Source of the DNA: Xanthobacteraceae bacterium
Lineage (GTDB): Bacteria > Pseudomonadota > Alphaproteobacteria > Rhizobiales > Xanthobacteraceae
Length of the DNA stretch: 64,000 bases
Assembly (NCBI GenBank): GCA_024508855.1
Contig: JANINJ010000042.1
Coordinates: 248,001-312,000, forward strand
Direction of reading: 5' to 3'
The translations under genes and the position numbers were made by a program. Of the stretch, positions 47,897-61,791 are shown in pieces; position 1 is the stretch's first letter, and each line of letters begins with the position of its first letter. The notes beneath the pieces were generated by a model. That model ran no database searches. It saw nothing but the letters and a program-made list of their open reading frames with translations, and was not told where the DNA came from.

Positions 47897-48796
47897 ATGT
47901 CGAATACTGTCATCCCGTTGTTGCTGGACAGTCTCGCCAGCGCCGCGTTGATCTTCTTCGCGGCTGTTGGCCTGACGCTGGTATTCAGCGTGCTCCGTGT
48001 GCTGAATGTCGCGCACGGCAGCCTCTATTCGATCGGCGCCTATGTCGCGGCGTCGATCTGCCTTTTTATCGCGAGCAGGCAGCTCAGCCCGTACCTGTCA
48101 TTCGTGGCGTTGTTGTTCAGCGCCGTGTTTGTCGCAGCCATACTCGGTCCGCTCATCGAGCGGACCTTGATCCGGTGGACCTACGGCAAATCGGAAGCCG
48201 TCCAGATCCTGATCACCTTTGGGTTGTTTCTGATGCTGGAAGACCTGCAACGCATGGTCTTCGGTGTGCAGTCGCTTTACGAAGACGCGCCAGTGCGGCT
48301 GCTGGGCACGTCCCAGATCGGCGGGGTGGTCTACCTGAACTATCAGATTTTCCTGATCGGAATGGCGGTTTTGGTCGTCATCGGGCTGCGGATGCTGATC
48401 CGGCATACGCGGCTCGGACGGCTGATTACTGCGGTGGTGGCTGATCGCGAAATGGCACAGTCGATCGGCATCGACACCAATCGCATTTTCATTCTGGCAT
48501 TCTCGCTGGGCGTGTTTCTCGCAGCACTCGGTGGCGCGCTGGCGATGCCGACCTCCGGTGTCGCGCCGGGGCTGGGTGCCGACACCATGGTGCTTGCATT
48601 TGCGGTGGCGGCGATCGGCGGTCTCGGTCAGATCGAGGGTGCCGCGGTCGCGGCGCTGATCGTGGGATTGGCCCGCGTGCTGGCCATCTATTTCGTCCCG
48701 TCTTTGGACGCGGTCGCGCCCTATGCGGCGATGCTGGTCGTTCTGCTCATTCGTCCGTATGGCCTGTTCGGCGCGGTTACCGCGAGGAGAATATGA
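47897..48796 (+). CDS. Branched-chain-type ABC transporter permease (LivH-like), aromatic operon
   Basis: A 299-residue permease with about eight membrane segments. VGLTLVFSVLRVLNVAHGSLYSIGAY is the LivH N-terminal signature and RHTRLGRLITAVVADREMAQSIGI the ATPase-contact loop. It ends RPYGLFG, typical of the family. It overlaps LivM by ATGA and forms the channel for the compound bound by the protein at 46516-47814. Confidence 0.92.
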   Translation: MSNTVIPLLLDSLASAALIFFAAVGLTLVFSVLRVLNVAHGSLYSIGAYVAASICLFIASRQLSPYLSFVALLFSAVFVAAILGPLIERTLIRWTYGKSEAVQILITFGLFLMLEDLQRMVFGVQSLYEDAPVRLLGTSQIGGVVYLNYQIFLIGMAVLVVIGLRMLIRHTRLGRLITAVVADREMAQSIGIDTNRIFILAFSLGVFLAALGGALAMPTSGVAPGLGADTMVLAFAVAAIGGLGQIEGAAVAALIVGLARVLAIYFVPSLDAVAPYAAMLVVLLIRPYGLFGAVTARRI

Positions 48797-49719
48797 TGCG
48801 GGTGGTCCTCGCCGCTGCGTCGGTGGTCGTTCTTGCGATACTGCCGATGTTTGCCCCGTGGCTTCAGTTCGTCTTGACCCTTGCGATCGCCAAGGGGTTT
48901 GCAGCGCTGGGCGTGGCAATCCTGCTTCGCGCCGGGCTGATCTCGATCGGCCATGCCATGTTCTTTGCCGCGAGCGCCTATGGCGTCGCATTTCTCGCGG
49001 CGCGAGGCATTGGAGATTTTGCAAGCCTTCTGGTTCTTTCCGTCGTGATCGCTGCCCTGACGGGCGTCATCGTCGGCGCGTTCCTCGTTCGCTATCGCGC
49101 GATTTTCTTCGCGATGCTGAACCTCGCCGTGTCGATGGTCTTCTATTCGCTGTTCGCCAAGCTTTACGGCATCACCGGCGGATCGGACGGAATGGCGGTG
49201 CCGATTCCGAGCGTCTTTGGCATGGTGCTCAGCGAACCCGCTTTCAAGGATGTCCTGTTCTATCTCAGTCTCGTACTGATGGTGGTCATCGGCCTTGGCA
49301 TTCATCGCTATCTGGATAGTCCGCTCGGCCACGCGCTGTCGGCCGTGCATACCAACGAGGTCCGGCTTGAATATCTCGGCATTCCGGTCTGGGCAGTACT
49401 CCTGATTGCGTACGTAGTGTCCGCGGCGCTCGCCGGTCTGGGCGGCGCCATTGCGGGCTTCGCCATCGGGCGCGTCGTGCCCGACTTCGCGTTCTGGACC
49501 GCCTCGGGACACCTCGTTCTGGTCGCGGTTCTTGGCGGCATCGGCGGCGTGCCCGGTGCGTTCATCGGCGCGCTATTTCTCGAACTGCTTCACACCGCGG
49601 CCGTCACGGTTACGGATGCGTGGAATCTGATCGTGGGAGCTGCGCTCATCGCCGTCATCATGTTCATGCCCAAGGGCCTTTACGGACTCTTCGCGCGCGA
49701 GAAGGGGGCGGAGCGATGA
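48793..49719 (+). CDS. Branched-chain-type ABC transporter permease (LivM-like), aromatic operon
   Basis: A 308-residue permease. AILLRAGLISIGHAMFFAASAYG is the LivM signature (the usual SFGH is SIGH), and LDSPLGHALSAVHTNEVRLEYLGI is the ATPase-contact loop. About eight or nine membrane segments are visible. Its ATG overlaps the LivH stop and its stop overlaps LivG, so LivHMG are tightly coupled. Confidence 0.91.
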   Translation: MMRVVLAAASVVVLAILPMFAPWLQFVLTLAIAKGFAALGVAILLRAGLISIGHAMFFAASAYGVAFLAARGIGDFASLLVLSVVIAALTGVIVGAFLVRYRAIFFAMLNLAVSMVFYSLFAKLYGITGGSDGMAVPIPSVFGMVLSEPAFKDVLFYLSLVLMVVIGLGIHRYLDSPLGHALSAVHTNEVRLEYLGIPVWAVLLIAYVVSAALAGLGGAIAGFAIGRVVPDFAFWTASGHLVLVAVLGGIGGVPGAFIGALFLELLHTAAVTVTDAWNLIVGAALIAVIMFMPKGLYGLFAREKGAER

Positions 49720-50462
49720 TGCAGCCTATCCTTGAAGCGAAGGACCTCCATGTCGCCTTCAACGGCGTCAAGGCGGCCGATGGCGTCAGTCTCAGCATTC
49801 ACGATGGCGAGTTCCTCGCGATCATCGGCCCCAACGGCTCGGGCAAGACGACGGTCCTGAATCTCTGCACCGGTTACGTCCGGCCGAAATCGGGGAGCGT
49901 CCATCTCGACGGTCAGGACATCACGCGTCTGGCGCCGCGCGCGATCGCGCGCCTCGGCGTTGCGCGCGCGTTTCAGATCCCTCAGCTCTTCTCCGATCAG
50001 CGCGTCATCGACAACATGATGCTGTCGCTCGCCGCCAAGGACGGCCTGTGGACCATGATGCGGCCGCTCGAGACCGAGGCGCGGCGGGCGGAGGCCGAAG
50101 CGTTGCTCGGCCTGGTCGGGCTTGCCGACGACAAAAATCGTATCAGCAATACCTTGCCCGAAGGCCATCGGAAGCTGCTCGACATTGCGGTAGCGCTGGC
50201 GCTGAAGCCGCGCCTGCTGCTGTTGGACGAGCCGACCAGCGGGGTCAGCGCGCTGGAGCGCTTCCCGCTGATGGAAGCCTTGATGGGCGCCCTTCGTCAG
50301 CGGCAGATCACCGCGCTGTTCGTCGAGCACGACATGGACGTGGTCGCGCGTTATGCCAACCGCGTTCTGGTCTGGAACGCCGGAAACATCATGGCGGAGG
50401 GGCATCCCGATGAGGTGTTCAAGGATCAGCGGGTCCTGCAAAGCGTCGTAGGGGTCGCGTGA
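49716..50462 (+). CDS. ABC transporter ATP-binding protein (LivG-like) with unusual signature motif
   Basis: A 248-residue ATPase. Walker A GPNGSGKTT at 38-46, Walker B LLLLDEPTSGVSA and switch VEHDMDVVARYA are normal. The ABC signature region reads TLPEGHRKLLDIAVALA, where the LSxG core seen in most ABC ATPases is replaced by LPEG. That motif contacts ATP across the dimer, so activity may depend more on LivF. It overlaps LivM by ATGA and LivF by 1 nt. Confidence 0.9.
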   Translation: MMQPILEAKDLHVAFNGVKAADGVSLSIHDGEFLAIIGPNGSGKTTVLNLCTGYVRPKSGSVHLDGQDITRLAPRAIARLGVARAFQIPQLFSDQRVIDNMMLSLAAKDGLWTMMRPLETEARRAEAEALLGLVGLADDKNRISNTLPEGHRKLLDIAVALALKPRLLLLDEPTSGVSALERFPLMEALMGALRQRQITALFVEHDMDVVARYANRVLVWNAGNIMAEGHPDEVFKDQRVLQSVVGVA

Positions 50463-51130
50463 TGCTCAGCCTCGATAACGTTCAGGTCTCGATCGAAGGC
50501 GTTCGCGTCCTTCGCAACGTCAGTTGCAGGATCGAAGAACGCAAGACCACCGTGTTGATCGGACGCAACGGCGCCGGTAAGACCACCACGCTTCGCGCCA
50601 TCATGGGATTGTTGCCTCTCGACGGTGGCGCCATCCGCCTCGACGACGACGATCTCGTCAAATCTCCAGCGCATCATCGCGCGCAGGCCGGAATCGGTTA
50701 CGCACCGGAAGATCGCCGTCTCGTCGCCGAATTGAGCGTCGAGGAAAATATCAGGCTTCCGGCGCTGGCGCTGAAGTTGAACAAGATCGAAACGAAGCGT
50801 CGCCTGGACGAGGTCTACGCCCTGCTGCCTCAACTGCATACAATGCGGGAAAGGCCGGGAGGAGGGGTCTCCGGCGGGCAGGGCAAGATGGTCGCATTGG
50901 GTCGGGCGCTCATGGTCGCGCGAAAGGTGCTGCTGCTCGACGAGCCGTTTCAGGGGCTGGCGCCGGCGCTTGCGCTGGATTACGCGCGGACGCTCGGCGA
51001 ACTGCGCAAGCACCGCCCCGAACTTGCATTGCTCATCACCGAATCAAGCCCCGCGTTGCTCGACAAGATCGCCGACCGTACATTGCAAATCGAACGCGGC
51101 GAGATTCTCGCCAAACCGACCGAGACATAA
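50462..51130 (+). CDS. ABC transporter ATP-binding protein (LivF-like), aromatic operon
   Basis: A 222-residue ATPase with Walker A GRNGAGKTT at 34-42, IGYAPEDRRLVAELSVEENI, signature GGVSGGQGKMVALGRAL and Walker B LLLDEPFQGLAP. It is a little shorter than usual LivF. ATG 50462 was preferred; a GTG three nt upstream is an alternative, overlapping the LivG stop more. The DUF2848 gene follows 9 nt on. Confidence 0.91.
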   Translation: MLSLDNVQVSIEGVRVLRNVSCRIEERKTTVLIGRNGAGKTTTLRAIMGLLPLDGGAIRLDDDDLVKSPAHHRAQAGIGYAPEDRRLVAELSVEENIRLPALALKLNKIETKRRLDEVYALLPQLHTMRERPGGGVSGGQGKMVALGRALMVARKVLLLDEPFQGLAPALALDYARTLGELRKHRPELALLITESSPALLDKIADRTLQIERGEILAKPTET

Positions 51131-51139
51131 GGAAACCAG

Positions 51140-51823
51140 ATGCTTCTGACATTCGACCGCACGGCACAGGACAGGACCGACCGTGTCGGAGTTGAGATCA
51201 ATTCGCTGATCGTCGCCGGCTGGGCCGGTCGCGATGCCGCCGCCATCGAACATCATATCGAAGAGCTTGCCGCGATTGGCGTACCGCGTCCATCGACCAC
51301 GCCGCTCTACTACCGCGTGGCGGCTCAGACCGCGACGCAGTCGGGCCGTCTGGTGGTGCTGGGGCCGGACAGTTCGGGCGAGGTCGAGCCTCTTGTGATC
51401 GCAATGGCCGATGGGCTCTGGATCGGTATCGGATCCGATCACACCGACCGCAAAGCGGAAGCGATGGGCATCGCCTTGTCGAAGCAGCTGTGCGGCAAGC
51501 CGGTTGGCTCGCAGCTGTGGTCCTATGCCGACGTCGAAGGCCATTGGGACCAACTGGTCATCCGGTCTTGGGCCACGATCGACGGCGAGCGGGTGCTCTA
51601 TCAGGAGAGCTCGGTTTCCACCTTGCGCACCCCACGCGATCTCATCCGCAAGCACACCGGGACGGACACGCTTCCGGCCGGAACGCTGATGTTCTGCGGC
51701 ACCCCCGGCGCAATCGGCGGCATTCGCCCGGCGACGCGTTTCGAGATGGAGTTGAACGATCCGGTCCTCAACCGCTCGCTGACGCACGGTTACGATATCG
51801 AGGTCTTGCCGGTTATTTCCTGA
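51140..51823 (+). CDS. DUF2848 (fumarylacetoacetate-hydrolase-like) family protein
   Basis: A 227-residue protein whose central GIGSDHTDRKAEAMGIALSKQ segment is the mark of DUF2848, a family distantly related to the fumarylacetoacetate hydrolase fold. GTLMFCGTPGAIGGIRPATRFEMEL resembles the C-terminal part of that fold, where a metal and a 2-keto acid bind. It is the last gene of the HpaC-HpaB operon, so hydrolysis, decarboxylation or isomerisation of a ring-derived keto acid is a sensible guess. No member of DUF2848 is known to me with an established reaction. Confidence 0.8.
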   Translation: MLLTFDRTAQDRTDRVGVEINSLIVAGWAGRDAAAIEHHIEELAAIGVPRPSTTPLYYRVAAQTATQSGRLVVLGPDSSGEVEPLVIAMADGLWIGIGSDHTDRKAEAMGIALSKQLCGKPVGSQLWSYADVEGHWDQLVIRSWATIDGERVLYQESSVSTLRTPRDLIRKHTGTDTLPAGTLMFCGTPGAIGGIRPATRFEMELNDPVLNRSLTHGYDIEVLPVIS

Positions 51824-52159: not shown

Positions 52160-53158
52160 ATGGGCAATCTCATCAAATCGCTGGGCGCGGTACGCTACCT
52201 GAATCAGGAAAAGATCGTCTTCCTGTTGACGGTCATGCTGTTCGCCGTGTTTTCGCTGATCCTTCCGAATTTTCTCGCGGCCAACAATATCCTGTCGCTA
52301 ATCCGGAGCGTTGCCGTTCTCGGCATTCTCGGTCTCGGCATGCTCATCGTGGTCCTCGGGCGCGGCATCGATCTCTCGCTGGTCGCCAACATGGCGATCT
52401 CGGTTGCCTGGAGTCTGCAACTGGTCAGCGGCGGCATGTCAGTCGCCTCCGCCATGACCGTCGGTCTGCTCTTCGCGCTTGGAATGAGCCTGATCACCGG
52501 CTTGCTGATTGCCTACGCGGAAATTCCCTCGCTGTTCGCAACGCTGGCGATGGCCACGTTCGTCTATGGCTTCGGCCGGGCGCACCTGATTACCGGCACG
52601 GACGTTGTTTACCTGCCGTCGGATATCGGCTGGATCATTCATCTCGGGCAGGGAACGTTGCTCGGCATTCCGACCCCGATCCTGGTTGCCGGCGCGGTTG
52701 CGCTGATCGCCTATCTGTTTCTTCGTTTCACGAAACCGGGCCGCTTCATCTACGCCATCGGCGACAATTTCGTCACCGCGCGAACCGGCGGCATGCCGGT
52801 GCGGCCGATGCTGGTGGTGCAGTATGTCATCGCCGGCGGCATTGCATTCATTGCCGGTATCGTCACGGCGACATCGGCGCAGGCGATGAACACGCGCGTC
52901 GTCAATTCCAACATGATCTATGACGTGATCCTCGTCGTGGTGCTGGGCGGTGTCGGTCTGAGCGGCGGCCGCGGCAATGTCCGCAACGTCATCGTCGGCA
53001 CCTTGCTGATCGGCGTGCTGATGAACGGCATGACGATCATGGACCTTCAGTACACCGTCCAGAACGTCGTCAAGAGCCTGATCCTTCTGGTCGCGATCGT
53101 GGCCGACAGCATTCTCAATCCGCGCGACGAGCAGACGGGACAGCAGGGCGACATTTAG
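52160..53158 (+). CDS. ABC transporter permease, ribose (RbsC) type
   Basis: A 332-residue permease with about ten membrane segments. PNFLAANNILSLIRSVAVLGILGLG and GRGIDLSLVANMAIS are the RbsC signatures, and LGGVGLSGGRGNVRNVIVG is the C-terminal motif. It lacks an ATPase directly behind it; the ATPase is five genes down at 57535. It is the first gene of the region 5 operon, and a second permease (fused to a propeller) lies at 54317, so the channel is probably a heterodimer. Confidence 0.92.
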   Translation: MGNLIKSLGAVRYLNQEKIVFLLTVMLFAVFSLILPNFLAANNILSLIRSVAVLGILGLGMLIVVLGRGIDLSLVANMAISVAWSLQLVSGGMSVASAMTVGLLFALGMSLITGLLIAYAEIPSLFATLAMATFVYGFGRAHLITGTDVVYLPSDIGWIIHLGQGTLLGIPTPILVAGAVALIAYLFLRFTKPGRFIYAIGDNFVTARTGGMPVRPMLVVQYVIAGGIAFIAGIVTATSAQAMNTRVVNSNMIYDVILVVVLGGVGLSGGRGNVRNVIVGTLLIGVLMNGMTIMDLQYTVQNVVKSLILLVAIVADSILNPRDEQTGQQGDI

Positions 53159-53205: not shown

Positions 53206-54231
53206 GTGAAGAAATTGACTCAGTTAGCGGTGACCGCGGCGGCGCTTGCTGCTCTGACGGTCGGATCCGTGGCGACGCGGGCCGACGAATCGACCGATGC
53301 GTTCCGCGGGCCGGCATTGGCTTCGCTGAAGGGCAAGACCATCGCCTATCTGCCGATTTCGCTCGGTTTCGATCTGGCGCAGGCCTGGGGCGGCGTCGTC
53401 AAGACCGAGGCGCAACGCTACGGCATCAACTTCAAGGCGCAGGATCCGAACTGGGTGACCTCGGCGATGGCGCAGGGCATGACCTCGCTGATCGCCGAGC
53501 ATCCGGATGTCATCGTCACGCAGAATCCCGACGTGCAATCGCTGGCGCGCCTTCTCAAGCAGGCCAACGCTGCCGGCATCGCCGTGATCCAGATGAATAT
53601 GCAGGGTGCCGTGCAGACCGATGCCTATGTCGGTCCCGATTTCGTCGCACTGGGCGAGCAGGCCGCCAAGATGATGGTGGCGAAGTGCGGCAAGGACACG
53701 CAGACCTCGCACAAGGTGTCGCTGGTTGAGGGCGTGCCGACCGGTGGCGTCAGCTTCTATCAGATCGAGGGCATCAAGAAGGTGTTTGCGGAGAATCCCG
53801 AGATCAAGGTGGTGTCGAGCCAGGCGGCCGACTGGGACGCCAGCAAGGCGCGCGCGATCACCGAGACCGTGATTCAGCAGAACCCCGATCTGTGCGGCGT
53901 CATCGACGTCTGGGATGGTCAAGCTGTCGGCACCGGCGCCGCGATCAAGCAAGCCGGAAAGCAGGGTCAGGTTTACTTCGTCACCTCCGGCGGCGGCGCG
54001 CAGGCATCCTGCGACCGTCTCGCCGACGGCACCTTCTCGACTTTCATTAATTACGATGCGCCGGGCATGGGCCGCGACGCCTGGACCGCGATCATGACCT
54101 ATCTGCAGAACAAGCAGAAGGCCGGCGCTATCAAGACCCAGATCTATTCGCCGTTACGGGTCATGACCAAGGCCGATGTCAAAGCCGGCACCTGCTGGGA
54201 TCCCGAGCAGTACGCCAAGCTGCTGCGTTGA
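53206..54231 (+). CDS. ABC transporter substrate-binding protein, ribose (RbsB) type
   Basis: A 341-residue periplasmic protein. A Sec signal (KKLTQLAVTAAALAALTVGS, cleavage near ATRA) is followed by GKTIAYLPISLGFDLAQAWGG and VIDVWDGQAVGTGAAIKQAG of the Peripla_BP_4 family. The start is GTG 53206, with a perfect AAGGAGGG upstream. Ligands of this family are usually sugars or polyols, but the operon also carries an alcohol and an aldehyde dehydrogenase. A stem-loop follows the stop. Confidence 0.9.
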   Translation: MKKLTQLAVTAAALAALTVGSVATRADESTDAFRGPALASLKGKTIAYLPISLGFDLAQAWGGVVKTEAQRYGINFKAQDPNWVTSAMAQGMTSLIAEHPDVIVTQNPDVQSLARLLKQANAAGIAVIQMNMQGAVQTDAYVGPDFVALGEQAAKMMVAKCGKDTQTSHKVSLVEGVPTGGVSFYQIEGIKKVFAENPEIKVVSSQAADWDASKARAITETVIQQNPDLCGVIDVWDGQAVGTGAAIKQAGKQGQVYFVTSGGGAQASCDRLADGTFSTFINYDAPGMGRDAWTAIMTYLQNKQKAGAIKTQIYSPLRVMTKADVKAGTCWDPEQYAKLLR

Positions 54232-54237
54232 CGCTTC

Positions 54238-54269
54238 GAGCGTGACCGCGATCCGTCGCGGTCACGCTC
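54238..54269 (+). terminator. Stem-loop after the ribose-type binding-protein gene
   Basis: GAGCGTGACCGCGA (54238-54251) and TCGCGGTCACGCTC (54256-54269) form a perfect 14-bp stem with a 4-nt loop, 7 nt behind the stop. TTCTCTGATTTT follows, so this one has some U-tract and could terminate partially before the fusion gene. Confidence 0.65.
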
Positions 54270-54316: not shown

Positions 54317-56443
54317 TTGGCGACGACGAGCACCCTTGCAAAGCTGCGATATCGCTTTGTTCCCGATCATGTGATTGGCGAATTGCTGTCCAAGAAGTGG
54401 ATCGACAACGCGATCCCGTTCCTGGTGCTGCTCTGCGTTGTCGGCCTGTTCGGAACGCTGATTCCGAATTTCTTCTCGGCGTCCAATCTCGCCATCCAGG
54501 CGCGCGAGCTGGGCGAGTTCGGTCTGGTCTGCATGGCGATGATGATCGTCATCGTGGTCGGCGGCCTCGACCTCAGCGTCGGTTCGAATTTCGCGCTCGG
54601 CAATTTCATGACGCTGGCGCTGCTTAATCTTGGCGGCTGGCCGGTATGGCTCGCAATCCCGGCAGTGGTGCTGATCTGCGGCGGCGTCGGTTTCATCAAT
54701 GGTTTCCTGATCGGCTATCTCCGCCTGCGCGCCTTTCTCACCACGCTGGTGACGCTGATTATCGTGCGCGCCGTCGTCGACATGCTGCTGCTCAAATACT
54801 CCAAGGCGATGTCGGTGAGTTTCTACGACTCCAGCGTCTGGGACATGATCGGGCTTGGCGGCGTCGGCGGCGTGCCGTCCAGCTTCATCATCCTGATCGT
54901 GGTGGCTCTGATCGGTCACATCCTGTTGACGCGCAGCCGGCCTGGCTGGCGCGCCATGGCGATCGGCGGCTCGCGTCGCTCCGCACATAACATCGGCCTG
55001 TCGGTGCGCGGTACCGTCTGCGCAGCCTATACGATTTCCGGTATGCTCTGCGGTCTGGCAGGCGTTCTTTATGCCGCGCGGCTCGGCGGTGCTGGCACCG
55101 ATACCGGTATGGGTCTCGAGATTTCGGCGCTTACCGCGGCGGTGCTGGGCGGCAACAGCTTGGGCGGCGGCCGCGGCTCAGTGGTCAAGGCGCTGATTGG
55201 CGCGGTGATCGTTCAATTGATGACCAACGGGGTACTGCGGCTCGGCATGAACAGCGGCTCGGGGCCGATGGTGCTGGGCCTCACGTTGCTGCTGGCGGTG
55301 TTCATCGACGTGCGCTGGCTCAAGAACCGCGACAAGCTGCTGTCGAAGGTCTACGTCTCCCCGACGCTTGTCGAATTGCCGACGCCGCGTCCGACCGATG
55401 CGGAGAAGGGCGGGCCGCTGGCGCTGAACGACCGGCTGAAGGAAGTCGAGATCATCGGCCTCGACGAGGTGGAATCGCCCGAGGACGTGATTCTCGACGA
55501 GAATGATTATCTCTATTGCGGCACCCGCCACGGCGACATCGTGCGCTTCTCGCCGCCGCACTACAAGGAATGGGAAGTCTATGCCCACATCGGCGGATCG
55601 CCGCTCGGCATGGCGTTCGACAAGGTCGGCGACCTTCTGGTGTGCGTTGGCGGGATGGGACTCTACAAGATCGACCGCGACCGCAATGTCATCAAGGTAA
55701 CGGACGAAACCAACCGCTCGCCGTTCTCGGTGGTGGACGATTCCCGGCTGCGACTTGCCGACGACCTCGACATTGCGCCCGACGGCAAGGTTTATTTCAG
55801 CGAAGCGACGATCCGCTACGAGATGCACGACTGGCCGGTGGACGCGCTGGAGAGTCGTGGCAACGGCCGCATCATCTGCTACGACCCCAACACCGGCAAA
55901 ACCCACACCGCCGTGCGCAAGCTGGTGTTCCCGAATGGCGTGTGTCTGTCGCATGACGGGCAGGCGATCCTGTTCGCGGAAAGCTGGGGTTGCCGCATTA
56001 ACCGCTACTGGATCGCCGGGCCGAAGGCCGGAACAGTGGAGCGGATGCTCGACCAGTTGCCGGGCTATCCCGACAACATCAACCGCGCCTCCGACGGCAC
56101 CTATTGGGCGGCGATCATGGGCATGCGCTCGCCGGCGCTGGACGTCGCGCTGCGAATGCCGGGCTTCCGCCGCCGCATGGCGCGGCGCATCGCGCCCGAT
56201 CAGTGGCTCTATCCGAACCTCAACATCGGTTGCGTCATCCGCTTCAACGACAAGGGCGAGATCGTCGAATCGATGTGGGACAAGGGCGCAAGCAATCACC
56301 CGATGATCACCTCGATGCGCGAGCACAAGGGCTGGCTCTACCTCGGCGGCATCACCAATAACCGCATCGGCCGCGTCAAGCTCGGCGACTGGGCCGACAA
56401 GACCTGGAGCGGATATCAGAGCTATTGGGGACAGGTCCGATGA
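54317..56443 (+). CDS. ABC permease (RbsC type) fused to SMP-30/strictosidine-synthase-like beta-propeller
   Basis: A 708-residue protein in two parts. Residues 1 to about 335 are a complete RbsC-type permease: NFFSASNLAIQARELGEFGL, GGLDLSVGSNFALGNFM and LGGNSLGGGRGSVVKALIG. A linker (about 336-375) leads to a six-bladed-propeller domain. It has SPED (E389), FPNG (N540) and GYPDN (D586, N587), which are the positions that bind the metal in SMP-30/gluconolactonase and strictosidine-synthase-like proteins. The start is a TTG at 54317 with GAGG upstream. RbsC termini are cytoplasmic, so the propeller probably sits inside the cell next to the ATPase. The frame is continuous with no sign of frameshift, so the fusion is real in this sequence. 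Confidence 0.9.
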   Translation: MATTSTLAKLRYRFVPDHVIGELLSKKWIDNAIPFLVLLCVVGLFGTLIPNFFSASNLAIQARELGEFGLVCMAMMIVIVVGGLDLSVGSNFALGNFMTLALLNLGGWPVWLAIPAVVLICGGVGFINGFLIGYLRLRAFLTTLVTLIIVRAVVDMLLLKYSKAMSVSFYDSSVWDMIGLGGVGGVPSSFIILIVVALIGHILLTRSRPGWRAMAIGGSRRSAHNIGLSVRGTVCAAYTISGMLCGLAGVLYAARLGGAGTDTGMGLEISALTAAVLGGNSLGGGRGSVVKALIGAVIVQLMTNGVLRLGMNSGSGPMVLGLTLLLAVFIDVRWLKNRDKLLSKVYVSPTLVELPTPRPTDAEKGGPLALNDRLKEVEIIGLDEVESPEDVILDENDYLYCGTRHGDIVRFSPPHYKEWEVYAHIGGSPLGMAFDKVGDLLVCVGGMGLYKIDRDRNVIKVTDETNRSPFSVVDDSRLRLADDLDIAPDGKVYFSEATIRYEMHDWPVDALESRGNGRIICYDPNTGKTHTAVRKLVFPNGVCLSHDGQAILFAESWGCRINRYWIAGPKAGTVERMLDQLPGYPDNINRASDGTYWAAIMGMRSPALDVALRMPGFRRRMARRIAPDQWLYPNLNIGCVIRFNDKGEIVESMWDKGASNHPMITSMREHKGWLYLGGITNNRIGRVKLGDWADKTWSGYQSYWGQVR

Positions 56444-57522
56444 ACGCGATCGGTGGCTGGCTCGAACGGTTCCTGGGGCGCGGCTCGGCGTCGGTGACGG
56501 TGCCGCCGCTGGACGGGGCGCTGAAGCCGAACAGCATCCTCGAAGAGGCTCCAACGGGTATCGCCGTCGCGCAGCCGGATAATCTTGCACTGCTCGATGG
56601 CAAGCCGATCTGGTCCAGCGGCGCGCAGATATTGCGCGCGGGGAGCAATGGTGAGCCGGTGCCGCTCCTGACCGCACCGAGCGCGGTAACGGCGCTGGCG
56701 TGCTCGACCGCAGGTTTGCTGGCCGTGGCATGTCAATCACACGGCATCCTCGTGTTTGATCGCAACGGAAAGGAAGCGCCCGTCAACTGGCGCGACGGCA
56801 GGGCCTATTCCTGCGTCACCGCGCTGGCTTTCGCGAATGACGATATGTTGCTGGTCTGCGTGGGGTCGTCGGATAATCCTCTGGCGGCCTGGCAACGCGA
56901 TCTGCTGGACCAGCGTCACTCCGGAATTCTCTGGCGCATCGACCTCAAGCGAGGCGACGCGACGAAGGTGGCCTCGAAACTGGCATTTCCCAACGGCGTC
57001 TTCGCTGCACCGGACGGCAGCTACGTGGTCAGCGAAAGCTGGGCCAAGCGGCTGATCCGGATCGGTAGCAACGGCAATGTTCTCGGCCAACTGATCGAGG
57101 ACCTTCCGGGTTATCCCGCCCGGGTTGCGCGCTCCAGCCGCGGCGGCTATTGGCTCAGCATCTTCGCGCCGCGAAGTCCCTTGATCGAATTTGTTCTGCG
57201 CGAGGACAAGTATCGGCGGGCGATGATGGCCGAAGTGGCGCCGCAATACTGGATCGCGCCGGCGCTGCAGAGCGGGGTCTCGTTTCATGAGCCCATGCAG
57301 GGCGGCGCGCTGAAGCAGATGGGCATTCTCAAGCCTTGGGCGCCGACGCTTTCCTATGGCCTCGTCGTCGAACTCAACGAGAATTTCGTTCCGATCCGCA
57401 GCATGCACAGCCGGGCCGGCGGCCGCCGCCACGGCATCACGTCGGCGGTCGAGCATGATGGAAAACTGTGGCTGACGAGCAAGGGCGGTGACGAGGTCGT
57501 CCTGCTGAACATCCAAACGTAA
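56440..57522 (+). CDS. SMP-30/strictosidine-synthase-like propeller, probably non-catalytic
   Basis: A 360-residue soluble protein related to the propeller half of its neighbour: LAFPNGVFAAPDGSYVVSESWAKRLIRI and DLPGYPARVARSSRGGYWLS match the same blades. Of the metal-site residues only the Asn of FPNG (N185) is kept; the PED Glu has become APTG, and the DN pair is A227-R228. No signal peptide is visible. Its ATG overlaps the fusion stop (ATGA), so both are translated together. It may bind the first propeller or a ligand instead of catalysing a reaction. Confidence 0.85.
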   Translation: MNAIGGWLERFLGRGSASVTVPPLDGALKPNSILEEAPTGIAVAQPDNLALLDGKPIWSSGAQILRAGSNGEPVPLLTAPSAVTALACSTAGLLAVACQSHGILVFDRNGKEAPVNWRDGRAYSCVTALAFANDDMLLVCVGSSDNPLAAWQRDLLDQRHSGILWRIDLKRGDATKVASKLAFPNGVFAAPDGSYVVSESWAKRLIRIGSNGNVLGQLIEDLPGYPARVARSSRGGYWLSIFAPRSPLIEFVLREDKYRRAMMAEVAPQYWIAPALQSGVSFHEPMQGGALKQMGILKPWAPTLSYGLVVELNENFVPIRSMHSRAGGRRHGITSAVEHDGKLWLTSKGGDEVVLLNIQT

Positions 57523-57534
57523 TCGGATTGAACG

Positions 57535-59034
57535 ATGCAACCGATCGTCGAGTTGAAGAACGTCACCAAGGAGTTCTATGGCGTCCCCGCGCTGCGCGAC
57601 GTCAGCTTCGACTTGGCTCCCGGCGAAGTTCACGCGCTGCTTGGTGAGAACGGCGCCGGAAAATCGACGTTGACCAAGATCATGGCTGGTGTCCACGAAG
57701 TGACGACCGGCGAGCTTCTGGTCGACGGCAAGGTCGAATCCTTCAAGACGCCGGCCGAGGCTCTGCAAAAGGGCATCGCGATGGTGTTTCAGGAAACCAG
57801 CCTGGTACCCTCGCTCACGGTGGCGCAGAACCTCTATCTCGGCAACGAGAAGTTCCTGAACCGGCTGCGCGGAATCTATATCTCGGCACAGCAGTTCCTG
57901 CAGTCGCTGAACTTCGGCGTCGATCCGACGATGTTCGTGTCGCAGCTCGGTGCGGCGCAAAAGCAGATGGTGGAAATCGCGCGGGCGGTTCACCACAAGG
58001 CGAAAGTCATCATCTTCGACGAACCGACGGCGACGCTGACGCCCGAGGAAAAGCACCACTTCTTCTCGCTGATCCGGCGCCTGAAAAGCGATGGCGTGTC
58101 GATCATTTTCATTTCGCATGCGCTGGAGGAAGCGCTCGCGATTTCCGATCGCATCACGATCCTGCGCGACGGGCAGCATGTAATTACCGACGACGTGAAG
58201 AAGTTCGATCGCGACAAGATCATCAATGCGATGGTCGGACGAACGCTTTCCGGCGAACTCTATGGCAAGGCCGGCGACAAGCGCGCGCCGCGTCCCTACG
58301 GCCAGAAGATTCTCAGCGTCCAGAACCTTTCGATGGGAAAGATGGTGCGCAACACCTCGTTTTCCATCTACAGCGGGCAGATCACCGGCATTTTCGGCCT
58401 GATCGGATCGGGGCGGACGGAAACCGCAAAGATCATCTCGGGCGTGGTCAAGCGCGATTTCTTCCACGGCGGCGAAGTCAAACTCGAAGGGCGCTCGGTT
58501 CGCTATCGCGTGCCGCGCAAGGCGGTGAAGGATGGCATCGTCTATGTGACGGAAGACCGCAAGCTCGAGGGTTTCTTCGAAACCAAGTCGATCGCGGAAA
58601 ACATCTACCTCAATCTTCTGGCCGCGGACCTCAACAAGGGCCTCACCGTCAGCTATTCCGAGATGATGGAGCTTGCGCGCCACTGGACCGAAAAACTCAA
58701 TGTCCGCGCGATCAACAATTCGGCGCGGGTCGTCGAACTTTCCGGCGGAAATCAGCAGAAGGTGGTGATCGCGCGTTCGCTGGTGCAGCGGCCGAAGCTG
58801 ATCATTTTCGACGAACCGACGCGCGGCGTCGATGTCGGCGCGATCGCGGAACTGCATCACGTCATCAATCAGCTTGCCGATTCCGGTCTCGCGGTAGTCG
58901 TCATCTCCTCGTACCTGCCGGAAGTCCTCAATCTCGCCGATCGGATTCTGGTCTCGCGCCAGGGCAGGGTAGTCGAGGAATTTTCGATGGAAGACGCGAC
59001 CGAAGAAAAGATCATGTACGCCGCGGTTCACTAG
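57535..59034 (+). CDS. Ribose-type ABC transporter ATP-binding protein with two nucleotide domains
   Basis: A 499-residue RbsA/XylG-type ATPase. N-terminal half: Walker A GENGAGKST near 37, signature QLGAAQKQMVEIARA and Walker B IIFDEPTATLT. C-terminal half: degenerate Walker A GLIGSGRTE, YVTEDRKLEGFF, signature ELSGGNQQKVVIARSL and Walker B IIFDEPTRGVDVG. This one chain provides both ATPase sites for the two permeases of the operon. The start is 12 nt after the second propeller gene. Confidence 0.93.
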   Translation: MQPIVELKNVTKEFYGVPALRDVSFDLAPGEVHALLGENGAGKSTLTKIMAGVHEVTTGELLVDGKVESFKTPAEALQKGIAMVFQETSLVPSLTVAQNLYLGNEKFLNRLRGIYISAQQFLQSLNFGVDPTMFVSQLGAAQKQMVEIARAVHHKAKVIIFDEPTATLTPEEKHHFFSLIRRLKSDGVSIIFISHALEEALAISDRITILRDGQHVITDDVKKFDRDKIINAMVGRTLSGELYGKAGDKRAPRPYGQKILSVQNLSMGKMVRNTSFSIYSGQITGIFGLIGSGRTETAKIISGVVKRDFFHGGEVKLEGRSVRYRVPRKAVKDGIVYVTEDRKLEGFFETKSIAENIYLNLLAADLNKGLTVSYSEMMELARHWTEKLNVRAINNSARVVELSGGNQQKVVIARSLVQRPKLIIFDEPTRGVDVGAIAELHHVINQLADSGLAVVVISSYLPEVLNLADRILVSRQGRVVEEFSMEDATEEKIMYAAVH

Positions 59035-59130: not shown

Positions 59131-60258
59131 ATGAAAATCAGGGCCGCCGTTCTTGAAGAAATGGGTCTGGAAGCGCCCTATGCCCGTTCACGCCCTCTCA
59201 AGGTGCAGGACGTCGACCTCGACGGTCCCGGACCGGGCGAGGTTTTGATCAGGATCGCGGCGGCGGGTCTCTGTCATTCCGACCTGTCCGTGATCAATGG
59301 CGATCGGCCCCGGCCATTGCCGATGGTGTTGGGGCACGAAGCGTCCGGCGTCGTCGAAGAAGTGGGCCCCGGCGTCGACGATCTGGTGCGCGGCGATCAT
59401 GTGGTGTGCGTTTTCGTGCCGAGCTGCGGGCATTGCGACCCATGTTCGCAGGGGCGCCCCGCGCTGTGCGAGCCGGGTGCGGAACACAACGGCAAGGGCG
59501 ATCTGCTCACCGGTGAATTCCGCCTGCATCGCGCGGGTAATCGCGTGCATCATCACTGCGGCATCTCGTGCTTTGCCGAATATGCGACCGTATCCCGGCG
59601 TTCGCTGGTGAAGGTGCAGAAGGATGTTCCATTGCACATCGCGGCGTTGATGGGGTGTGCGGTGCTCACAGGCGCGGGTGCGGTGTTCAACGGCGGCGAT
59701 GTCGAGCCCGGCGGGAAGGCGGCGATCGTCGGTCTCGGCGGCGTCGGCCTTGCGGCCATTCTCGGCGCGGCGGCAAACGGTGCGGAGACGATCATTGCGG
59801 TCGACCAACTCGACCGGAAGCTGGAAATGGCCCGCGAACTCGGTGCCACCCACACCTTCAATGCAGCCGATCCGGATGTCGTCGGCAAGGTGAAAGAAGC
59901 CACGAAAGGCGGCGTCGATGCCGCGCTCGAGTTTGCCGGCTCGGTGAAGGCGCTCGAGTTCAGCTATGCCATCACACGCCGGGGTGGAACGACGGTGACG
60001 GCAGGATTGCCGAATCCGAAAGCGATGCTGACATTGCCGGCCGTCTCGCTGGTTGCCGAAGAGCGCACGTTGAAAGGCAGCTATCTCGGTTCCGGCGTGC
60101 CGTCGCGGGACATTCCGCGCTTTCTCGGATTGTTCAATCGCGGAAAGATGCCGGTCGACAAACTGCTGACCCATCGTATTTCCCTCGACGAGATCAACGA
60201 GGGGTTCGATCGTCTGGCCGACGGCAGCGCGATCCGCCAGGTGGTCGAATTCCAGTAA
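59131..60258 (+). CDS. Zinc-dependent alcohol dehydrogenase (class III-like)
   Basis: A 375-residue medium-chain dehydrogenase. Catalytic zinc ligands are C48 (GLCHSD) and H69 (LGHEASG), with a third Cys near 176. Structural zinc ligands are C99, C102, C105 and C113. GLGGVGLAAILGA binds NAD. GEFRLHRAGNRVHHHCGISCFAEYA is the substrate loop of the class III/aryl-alcohol branch. It lies 96 nt after the ATPase gene and 36 nt before an aldehyde dehydrogenase, so the pair would take an alcohol to an acid. Confidence 0.91.
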   Translation: MKIRAAVLEEMGLEAPYARSRPLKVQDVDLDGPGPGEVLIRIAAAGLCHSDLSVINGDRPRPLPMVLGHEASGVVEEVGPGVDDLVRGDHVVCVFVPSCGHCDPCSQGRPALCEPGAEHNGKGDLLTGEFRLHRAGNRVHHHCGISCFAEYATVSRRSLVKVQKDVPLHIAALMGCAVLTGAGAVFNGGDVEPGGKAAIVGLGGVGLAAILGAAANGAETIIAVDQLDRKLEMARELGATHTFNAADPDVVGKVKEATKGGVDAALEFAGSVKALEFSYAITRRGGTTVTAGLPNPKAMLTLPAVSLVAEERTLKGSYLGSGVPSRDIPRFLGLFNRGKMPVDKLLTHRISLDEINEGFDRLADGSAIRQVVEFQ

Positions 60259-60294: not shown

Positions 60295-61791
60295 ATGGCG
60301 CGAGTTCAAGGTATCAAGGATTATCAGTGCTTCATCGGTGGCCGTTGGCGCGGCGCGGAGTCCGGCGAAACTTTCGAATCCGTCGATCCGTTTCTCGCCA
60401 AGCCCTGGGCGCGCATTCCGAAATGCGACCAGCGCGATGTCGATGCCGCGGTCGCGGCCGCGCGCAAGGCGCTGGAAAAGGGCGACTGGGCGAACATGCA
60501 CCCCTCCCAGCGCGGAAAGCTGCTGCACAAGCTCGGCGATCTCATTCTGCGCGACGCGGACCATCTCGCCGCGACCGAGGTGCAGGACAACGGCAAGCTC
60601 TATGCGGAGATGCGTGGGCAGGTCGGATATATCCCGCAGTGGTACTATTACTTCGGCGGCCTGGCCGACAAGATCGAGGGTGCCGTCGTTCCGATCGACA
60701 AGGCGGATATGTTCACCTACACCCGCCACGAGCCAGTCGGCGTCGTCGCGGCGATCACGGCGTGGAATTCGCCGCTGTTGCTGTTGACGTGGAAGCTGGC
60801 GGCCGCGCTTGCCGCGGGGTGCACCATCGTCGCCAAGCCGTCGGAATTCACCTCGGCCTCGACGCTGGAATTCGCGCGGCTTGTTGAGGAAGCCGGCTTT
60901 CCGGCGGGCGTCTTCAATGTCGTCACCGGCTTCGGCGCCGAAGTGGGCGAGGCACTGACGACGCACAAGGGCGTCGACAAGATCGCCTTCACCGGCGGCG
61001 AGAACAGCGGCCGGCACATTGCGCGCAATGCCGCGCAGACCTTCAAGCGGCTGACGCTCGAACTCGGCGGCAAGTCGGCGCAACTGGTGTTCCCGGATAC
61101 GGATATCGACAATGCGGTGAAAGGTGTCGTGTCGGGCATCTTCGCGGCGACCGGGCAGACCTGCATCGCAGGCTCGCGGTTGCTGGTGCATGAGAGCATC
61201 CACAACGAATTTCTGGACAAGTTCACCGCGCTGGCGAAAACGGCCCGCATGGGAGATCCGATGGACATGGCGACCCAGGTCGGCCCCGTCACCACGCAGC
61301 CGCAATATCAGCGCATCCTGTCGTGCATCGAGATGGCGCGTAACGAGGGCGCGGAATGCGTGATGGGCGGCAAGGCCGCCGACCGGCCCGAATGCGGCGA
61401 CGGCTGGTTCATCGAACCCACGGTGTTCTCCAACGTATCGAACTCCATGCGGATCGCGCAGGAGGAAGTTTTCGGTCCGGTGCTCTCGGTCATTCGCTTC
61501 CGCGAGGACGAGGAGGCGTACGACATCGCCAACGATACGGCTTACGGACTGGCTGCCGGCGTCTGGACCGACAATCCGCGCCGGATGTTCACCGCGGCGA
61601 AGCGGCTGCGGGCCGGTTCGATCTGGACCAACACCTATCGCGCCGTGAGCTATATGGCGCCGTTCGGCGGCTTCAAGAATTCAGGCATCGGCCGCGAGAG
61701 CGGCCAGGAAGCGATCCTGGAATATCTGGAAACCAAATGTGTCTGGATGTCCTACGGCAAGGATGTGCCGAATCCATTCGTCATGCGGTGA
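60295..61791 (+). CDS. Aldehyde dehydrogenase family protein
   Basis: A 498-residue NAD(P)-dependent aldehyde dehydrogenase. Catalytic Glu 256 is in LELGGKSAQ and Cys 290 in GQTCIAGSRLL; AAITAWNSPLLLLTWKLA and IAFTGGENSGRHIA form the cofactor site. A GGAGG site precedes the ATG. It is the last gene of the region 5 operon. Since the PWN motif reads AWNSP, it belongs to the broad betaine-aldehyde/aromatic-aldehyde type; the substrate probably comes from the adjacent alcohol dehydrogenase. Confidence 0.91.
   Translation: MARVQGIKDYQCFIGGRWRGAESGETFESVDPFLAKPWARIPKCDQRDVDAAVAAARKALEKGDWANMHPSQRGKLLHKLGDLILRDADHLAATEVQDNGKLYAEMRGQVGYIPQWYYYFGGLADKIEGAVVPIDKADMFTYTRHEPVGVVAAITAWNSPLLLLTWKLAAALAAGCTIVAKPSEFTSASTLEFARLVEEAGFPAGVFNVVTGFGAEVGEALTTHKGVDKIAFTGGENSGRHIARNAAQTFKRLTLELGGKSAQLVFPDTDIDNAVKGVVSGIFAATGQTCIAGSRLLVHESIHNEFLDKFTALAKTARMGDPMDMATQVGPVTTQPQYQRILSCIEMARNEGAECVMGGKAADRPECGDGWFIEPTVFSNVSNSMRIAQEEVFGPVLSVIRFREDEEAYDIANDTAYGLAAGVWTDNPRRMFTAAKRLRAGSIWTNTYRAVSYMAPFGGFKNSGIGRESGQEAILEYLETKCVWMSYGKDVPNPFVMR

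Follow-up and report, generated by a model that had tools for sequence, protein, structure and literature searches.

Hydrolysis is the common chemistry of the propeller superfamily discussed here. According to a review of SSL (strictosidine synthase-like) proteins (PMC4215206), four metal ligands appear to be retained in most of these sequences, which are seen as likelier hydrolases. Another paper (PMC12362111) describes DrSOD of Deinococcus radiodurans as a natural fusion of a Cu/Zn-SOD with a propeller lactonase, in which calcium is held at Glu, Asn, Asn and Asp. TGW6 keeps Glu59, Asn167, Asn226 and Asn272 yet is reported (PMC10958001) to have no Ca site, and the authors point to its single acidic ligand, as against at least two in Ca-binding relatives.

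The window analysed here, a single stretch of 64,000 nucleotides from a Xanthobacteraceae bacterium, carries a gene that we read as coding for one of the two different membrane subunits of an RbsABC-type importer, the second of the heterodimer, with an SSL-type propeller tethered C-terminally by a linker of about 20 residues. The features of this gene and its neighbours, all on the forward strand, are these:

52160–53158, + strand: RbsC1, the first permease, RbsC type, without an extra domain (BPD_transp_2, 1.7e-24)
53206–54231, + strand: RbsB-type periplasmic substrate-binding protein (Peripla_BP_4, 1.1e-47)
54238–54269, + strand: 14-bp intergenic hairpin, after the binding-protein gene and ahead of the fusion gene (folding against shuffles)
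54317–56443, + strand: fusion gene, permease plus propeller, 708 aa (ORF, Pfam, model, alignment of fusions)
54317–55360, + strand: permease half, residues 1–348, ten predicted membrane helices (Pfam, AlphaFold2 helices, charge pattern)
55361–55426, + strand: linker, residues 349–370, variable in sequence (alignment of fusions)
55427–56404, + strand: six-bladed SSL-type propeller, residues 371–696 (Pfam, AlphaFold2, profile and Foldseek matches)
55481–55483, + strand: codon of E389, presumed metal ligand, strand A of blade 1 (81 of 81 fusions)
55760–55765, + strand: D482–D483, strand A of blade 3, at the place of the classical Asn ligand (fusion alignment)
55934–55936, + strand: codon of N540, presumed metal ligand, strand A of blade 4 (81 of 81 fusions)
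56072–56077, + strand: codons of D586–N587, presumed metal ligands, strand A of blade 5 (81 of 81 fusions)
56440–57522, + strand: SSL2, a second, metal-dead SSL propeller whose start overlaps the fusion stop (ATGA; sequence, profile, AlphaFold2)
57535–59034, + strand: RbsA-type double ATPase (ABC_tran, two stretches)
59131–60258, + strand: Zn-type alcohol dehydrogenase (ADH), a neighbour in part of the family (Pfam, NCBIfam)
60295–61791, + strand: aldehyde dehydrogenase (ALDH), a neighbour in part of the family (Pfam, NCBIfam)

An earlier note on this DNA had proposed that a permease and a propeller share one reading frame, and this was borne out. The frame of 708 codons opens with TTG, closes with TGA and has zero internal stops, and both halves exceed the curated Pfam cut-offs: BPD_transp_2 matches residues 68–327 (7.9e-34, 117.4 bits against a gathering score of 26.8), SSL_N matches residues 366–411 (4.9e-12, 46 bits against 18.9) and Str_synth matches residues 482–568 (2.5e-20, 72.8 bits against 25). 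SGL, the SMP-30/gluconolactonase family, also matches, at residues 426–602 (4.4e-12, 46.6 bits against 26.3), and is outscored by Str_synth. Judged by these domain matches, the fused propeller is nearer SSL proteins (Str_synth, SSL_N) than SMP-30. The linker region (residues 347–377) has a mean majority-residue value of 0.66 in the fusion alignment, and the spacing between positions 350 and 371 is 18–21 residues in a 31-row alignment.

Structure modelling agreed with this division. AlphaFold2, run on the fusion with a 31-row alignment, placed the permease helices between residues 6 and 346 and the six blades of the propeller between about 378 and 688, with a mean pLDDT of 77.2 and a pTM of 0.55, a value at which the relative placing of the two domains in the model is unreliable. 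Blades were read from the AlphaFold2 strands. By Foldseek, the best solved matches of the model are strictosidine synthases (E 2.5e-15; best TM-score 0.80 by target length), and further solved matches include TGW6, the lactonase RPA3624, Drp35, DFPase, the gluconolactonase XC5397 and PON1. When a profile of 24 propellers was compared with solved structures, TGW6 (8kg3) came first at 5.1e-29; strictosidine synthases were next, then DFPase (6.8e-7) and Drp35. PON1 and RPA3624 reached just 0.05–0.1, and the corresponding permease profile had zero matches among solved structures.

The permease half has ten helices by AlphaFold2 and hydropathy, of which helix 8 is weak (KD 0.69). Its K/R residues number 4 at the N-terminus, 2 in loop 4–5, 4 in loop 6–7, 1 in loop 8–9 and 6 after helix 10, with zero in loops 1–2, 2–3, 3–4, 5–6, 7–8 and 9–10. 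The helix count is thus even, and both permease ends are predicted to be cytoplasmic. The nearest propeller-free relative, in which the permease C-terminus runs directly into an RbsA ATPase, is found in another locus:

L117, 6433–8973: permease–RbsA double ATPase fusion of 846 aa; a binding protein and a first permease are encoded alongside

Both L117 permeases branch beside the corresponding clades of the fusion system (SH-aLRT 99 each), a placement that is the only one used from a permease tree with five poorly extracted 'other' rows, two of them on very long branches. Neither propeller profile has a match in the 18 kb of L117, and both match in the positive control, L118. The ATPase of an ABC importer must be cytoplasmic, so the C-terminus of the L117 permease should be cytoplasmic too. 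From the charge pattern and this sister permease ending in an ATPase, the fused propeller is predicted to be cytoplasmic, and the earlier note's placing of the propeller on that side is thereby supported at the level of prediction. The note's finer placing, below the channel and next to the ATPase, would go beyond what a model with a pTM of 0.55 can bear. The L117 permease–ATPase fusion is an unusual ABC importer in its own right.

Stand-alone homologues of the propeller have a strongly hydrophobic N-terminal segment in 17 of 19 cases (19-residue mean of at least 1.9), and 18 of the 19 lack Cys in their last 310 residues. This pattern of cysteines and N-termini would fit a fused propeller in the cytoplasm and stand-alone relatives anchored in the periplasm. 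Loci L084–L088 and L102–L113 hold bacterial stand-alone SSL propellers with intact metal ligands, mostly with a hydrophobic N-terminal segment and nearly Cys-free. Separately, Cys 443, 521, 543, 559 and 639 of the fusion (window 55643–56233), which lie over several blades, are kept in 73–79 of 81 fusions.

The putative metal site is intact in every fusion examined. We collected 81 distinct fusions (the window's own included, 44–100% identical to it, forming 66 clusters at 95% identity), and E389, D390, D483, N540, D586 and N587 are invariant in all of them; at position 482, 75 of the fusions have Asp and the other 6 have Asn. The four SSL-type ligand positions E389, D/N482, N540 and D586, which lie on the innermost strands of blades 1, 3, 4 and 5 as read from the AlphaFold2 model, are therefore filled in every fusion, position 482 mostly by Asp instead of Asn. 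The claim that all recognisable ligands are kept (E389, N540, D586 and N587) holds for the residues that it named and had left ligand position 482 off the list. Three of the residues at the putative site (E389, D482 and D586) are acidic. Asn272 of TGW6 aligns with N587 of the fusion when counted on the alignment, and either D586 or N587 could be the ligand. The 19 stand-alone homologues share the same ligands, except that N587 is found in 17. From this sequence pattern, metal binding by the fused propeller is likely.

The conservation extends beyond the ligands. Metal-side loops of the fused propeller have a mean majority-residue value of 0.88, against 0.72 for the opposite loops (0 of 20000 permutations gave a difference as large), and the value stays at 0.88 when the insert at 602–637 is removed. 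In a pairwise comparison, the contrast between the two faces is 11–25 points for the fusion, 13–24 for SSL2 and 7–12 for the stand-alone propellers, a set with greater sequence diversity and more alignment gaps than the fusions have. Two specific activities were considered from catalytic residues. Strictosidine synthase activity was rejected: the column of the catalytic glutamate, Glu309 in the Rauvolfia enzyme, corresponds by hand count on the HMMER alignment to T665, where 80 of the 81 fusions have Thr and the remaining one has a gap. Of the catalytic His dyad of PON1, H115 and H134, the place of H115 would fall by motif on L430 (Leu in 79 of 81 fusions), and the PON1 profile match spans profile positions 176–237 only.

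The tandem gene SSL2 (56440–57522) was absent from the account given in the earlier note. Its Str_synth score of 21.6 bits lies under the Pfam cut-off of 25, and AlphaFold2 nonetheless models it as a six-bladed propeller (pTM 0.83) whose top Foldseek match is a strictosidine synthase. A gene of at least 250 aa directly follows the fusion in 29 of 29 loci, and an SSL2 profile, which was partly built from the tested loci (L014, L017 and L036, plus the L118 and L119 genes, as L058 and L063), matches the gene after the fusion at 31 of 31 fusion places (30 in one scan, and L070 in a second). Over 30 rows the majority letter of SSL2 is D at position 389, T at 482, A at both 483 and 586, and R at 587, so that the ligands are lost there; at position 540, N is still found in 57% of the 30 rows. 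In an unrooted quick tree, which used 17 of the 24 fused rows and 15 of the 30 SSL2 rows and carries a long-branch warning, fused, SSL2 and stand-alone propellers form three groups (support 96, 100 and 97). A face contrast in the metal-dead SSL2 as large as that of the fusion would count against catalysis by the fused propeller. On its own AlphaFold2 model, however, the contrast between the faces of SSL2 comes mainly from an insert at 245–307 (0.81) and the loop at 324–332 (0.89); without the insert, its metal-side loops average 0.53 and the opposite side 0.45. Residues 273–300 of SSL2 (window 57256–57339) have a mean majority-residue value of 0.85, yet a pLDDT under 50. In the model this stretch looks like a docking element, as expected if it folds upon partner binding, and SSL2 probably docks on the complex through residues 273–300 and its N-terminus.

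The genes around the core offer a varied picture. An RbsC1 homologue lies upstream of the fusion in related loci. An ADH homologue is found in 24 of 40 close loci and ALDH follows the core in 22 of 40. Catabolic neighbours are fairly steady within close relatives and vary between subgroups: acyl-CoA oxidation genes on a Paracoccaceae plasmid, in Shinella an HMG-CoA reductase of the degradative type, in Celeribacter a downstream ring-hydroxylating dioxygenase, in Pantoea genes of sugar-phosphate metabolism, and in Paraburkholderia CoA-transferase and MaoC genes. A survey of 74 of 88 neighbours from 25 loci (same strand, 200–700 aa, core homologues excluded and most close loci left out, with a simple gene caller that missed genes and gave no calls for L124 and L036) found no Pfam family more than five times. 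The binding protein has eight NCBIfam matches, all far under cut-off, and no common solute can be inferred from these neighbours or from the sub-cut-off matches.

Between the binding-protein gene and the fusion gene, the segment 54225–54320 folds with a z-score of -4.44, and 0 of 200 shuffles were as stable. The hairpin at 54238–54269 is not one of the seven terminator-like sites predicted, and it perhaps sets the level of the binding protein above that of the permease. Just upstream of the system, at window positions 47897–51823, lies what by eye resembles a branched-chain-type ABC importer with two permeases and two ATPases, followed by a DUF2848/FAA-hydrolase-like gene.

The architecture recurs across many genomes. 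In a scan of species-representative genomes that reaches close relatives only, 40 related loci turned up, and in 37 of them a single frame of 650 aa or more encodes permease and propeller together. Of the remaining three, L022 begins at a contig end and its frame spans residues 161–705 with both halves there, L040 also begins at a contig end and covers residues 357–707 only, and in L043 the propeller's frame is broken close to residue 463. Among the named hosts are Bradyrhizobium, Rhizobium, Mesorhizobium, Shinella, Hoeflea, Gemmobacter, Sulfitobacter, Variovorax and Bordetella hinzii, to which plasmid records add Paraburkholderia and Pantoea. Counting the bacterium's own genome, the fusion is found in 9 of 61 genomes among its relatives, in at least 10 of 385 sampled genomes of the class (with one partial match) and in at least 11 of 398 of the phylum, the last two being lower bounds, with a maximum of two candidates scored per genome. 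With the permease profile alone, each of the 20 places that score above 400 bits belongs to a frame of 707 aa or more, long enough for a C-terminal partner; the next-best places are the permease–ATPase fusion at 328 bits and then ordinary permeases at 219 bits or less. Because these frames are all long, members of this permease clade appear always to have a C-terminal partner in this sample.

These counts bear on the suspicion that the fusion is an artefact, either two genes merged by an annotation or assembly error or a decayed, functionless passenger domain. The break in L043 would fit such a reading, and the single frames in 37 of 40 loci, the 20 of 20 long frames and the strong conservation of the pocket speak against it, so that we give it practically no credence; the sequencing error or hidden frameshift that the earlier note had raised is excluded by the single-frame loci and by the 81 distinct fusions. 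The note's description of the architecture as uncommon holds in the sense of sparse, not in the sense of rare. The family is recognisable by sequence and has more than one copy in some genomes, including two in the bacterium's own, where the second copy of the fusion is 59% identical and is also followed by a second propeller. In L126, two importer copies stand side by side, each with a fusion and SSL2, and in L041 a second importer copy follows and runs off the locus end.

Such genes are already in public records, where plasmid entries are named for a single half (as SMP-30/gluconolactonase family protein, or else as ABC transporter permease or RbsC), and these half-names make the fusion easily overlooked. 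Among the matches listed from open-licence full-text literature, no title or abstract start describes such a fusion, so the permease–propeller architecture itself seems undescribed within that set.

How fast the parts of the system diverge helps in weighing what the propeller does. Over 300 locus pairs, from 25 of 28 loci (the three without SSL2 by BLAST were dropped), median identity is 72% for RbsA, 71% for the fused propeller, 63% for the two permeases, 55% for the binding protein and 48% for SSL2; the propeller is more conserved than its own permease in 261 of 300 pairs, than the binding protein in 288 and than RbsA in 101. By these sequence identities, the propeller matches the ATPase in conservation and lies far above the binding protein. 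We also compared the active face (metal-side loops and inner strands) over the 378 pairs of the 28 loci. In the 84 pairs in which the binding proteins are less than 45% identical, the face is 70% identical and RbsA 65%, and overall the face exceeds RbsA in 357 of 378 pairs, a comparison of a selected part with a whole protein. Together with the varying neighbours, this conservation suggests that the pocket probably meets the same group or partner across subgroups.

We favour the following account. A cytoplasmic SSL (N6P) propeller with a full set of metal ligands would hang from the permease C-terminus, where it would act as a metal-dependent hydrolase during entry, cleaving a bond (ester, lactone or glycosyl-type) that all solutes of this importer class share. 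SSL2, from the next overlapping gene, would probably dock on the importer complex and serve as a non-catalytic docking or assembly partner. To import-coupled hydrolysis of a shared bond, with SSL2 in this role, we assign a probability of roughly 0.4. It is ranked above a ligand-sensing gate, with a scaffold behind both, on the strength of the superfamily chemistry and of the view of SSL proteins taken in the review (PMC4215206). In its favour are the ligands intact in 81 of 81 fusions and largely shared by the stand-alone homologues, the constraint on the whole active face, the predicted cytoplasmic side, the precedent of the DrSOD fusion, and the presence of DFPase, Drp35, the RPA3624 lactonase and PON1 among the solved neighbours by profile and fold. 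The same constancy counts against an enzyme dedicated to one solute, in that the neighbours change from one subgroup to another and the active face changes little even where the binding protein has diverged; a solute-specific lactonase is thereby made less likely. Hydrolysis must also contend with TGW6, the closest solved relative by sequence, being reported to lack a Ca site (PMC10958001), and with the L117 system, whose propeller-free 18 kb indicates that not every such importer requires propellers.

Some of these observations would suit a propeller that senses, the other reading raised in the earlier note. A constant cytoplasmic metabolite or ion, bound at the metal site, could switch the transporter on or off in the manner of the regulatory domains of MetN, ModC and OpuA, with SSL2 as a partner, and the 70% identity of the active face in the 84 divergent pairs, the subgroup-specific neighbourhoods and an overall conservation level with that of the ATPase are all consistent with such a gate. 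We regard it as a possible but less probable reading than hydrolysis, for characterised relatives use a metal site of this conserved kind to hydrolyse their substrates, and the regulatory domains of those other ABC importers sit on ATPases and not on permeases. A purely structural role, in which the fused propeller and SSL2 hold the ATPase on the permease pair or recruit downstream enzymes and the metal is structural, would account for an SSL2 that follows the fusion at every place checked though it has no ligands, for its docking-like, conserved, low-pLDDT stretch at 273–300, and for the L117 permease joined straight to its ATPase, as if tethering were a common need. A scaffold would have no need of a ligand set intact in all 81 fusions or of a pocket conserved on all sides, a feature missing from most metal-side loops of SSL2, and we consider this role unlikely. 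Import-coupled hydrolysis could also be carried further, to an importer class that hydrolyses the common bond of many conjugates (glycosyl, acyl or lactone) at entry, with the dead twin propeller obligatory, so that different released products would feed different downstream pathways; this extension is doubtful.

If import-coupled hydrolysis is correct, ATP-driven import and catalysis would be coupled on one polypeptide. A propeller acting on cargo would weld uptake to the first catabolic step, which would alter the prediction of solutes and pathways for such operons, whereas a propeller that senses would place a regulatory domain on a permease instead of an ATPase.

Set against described systems, the locus resembles RbsABC-type (CUT2) importers in its two BPD_transp_2 permeases, Peripla_BP_4 binding protein and RbsA-like double ATPase, and differs from them in a permease with a C-terminal propeller, in a second propeller gene and in NCBIfam equivalog matches that are all below cut-off. 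The L117 system is alike in that its two permeases adjoin both permease clades in the tree, and unlike in that its permease C-terminus is joined to the ATPase, with no propeller found in its 18 kb. With SSL/N6P proteins, including TGW6 (8kg3), the propeller shares SSL_N and Str_synth, six blades and the metal-ligand positions; here it is fused to a permease and predicted to be cytoplasmic, whereas the stand-alone homologues mostly have a hydrophobic N-terminus and are Cys-poor. TGW6 has one acidic ligand against three in the fusion (E389, D482 and D586). DrSOD involves no transporter and has propeller ligands Glu, Asn, Asn and Asp, and it is like the present gene in being a natural fusion of a metal-binding propeller with an unrelated functional unit.
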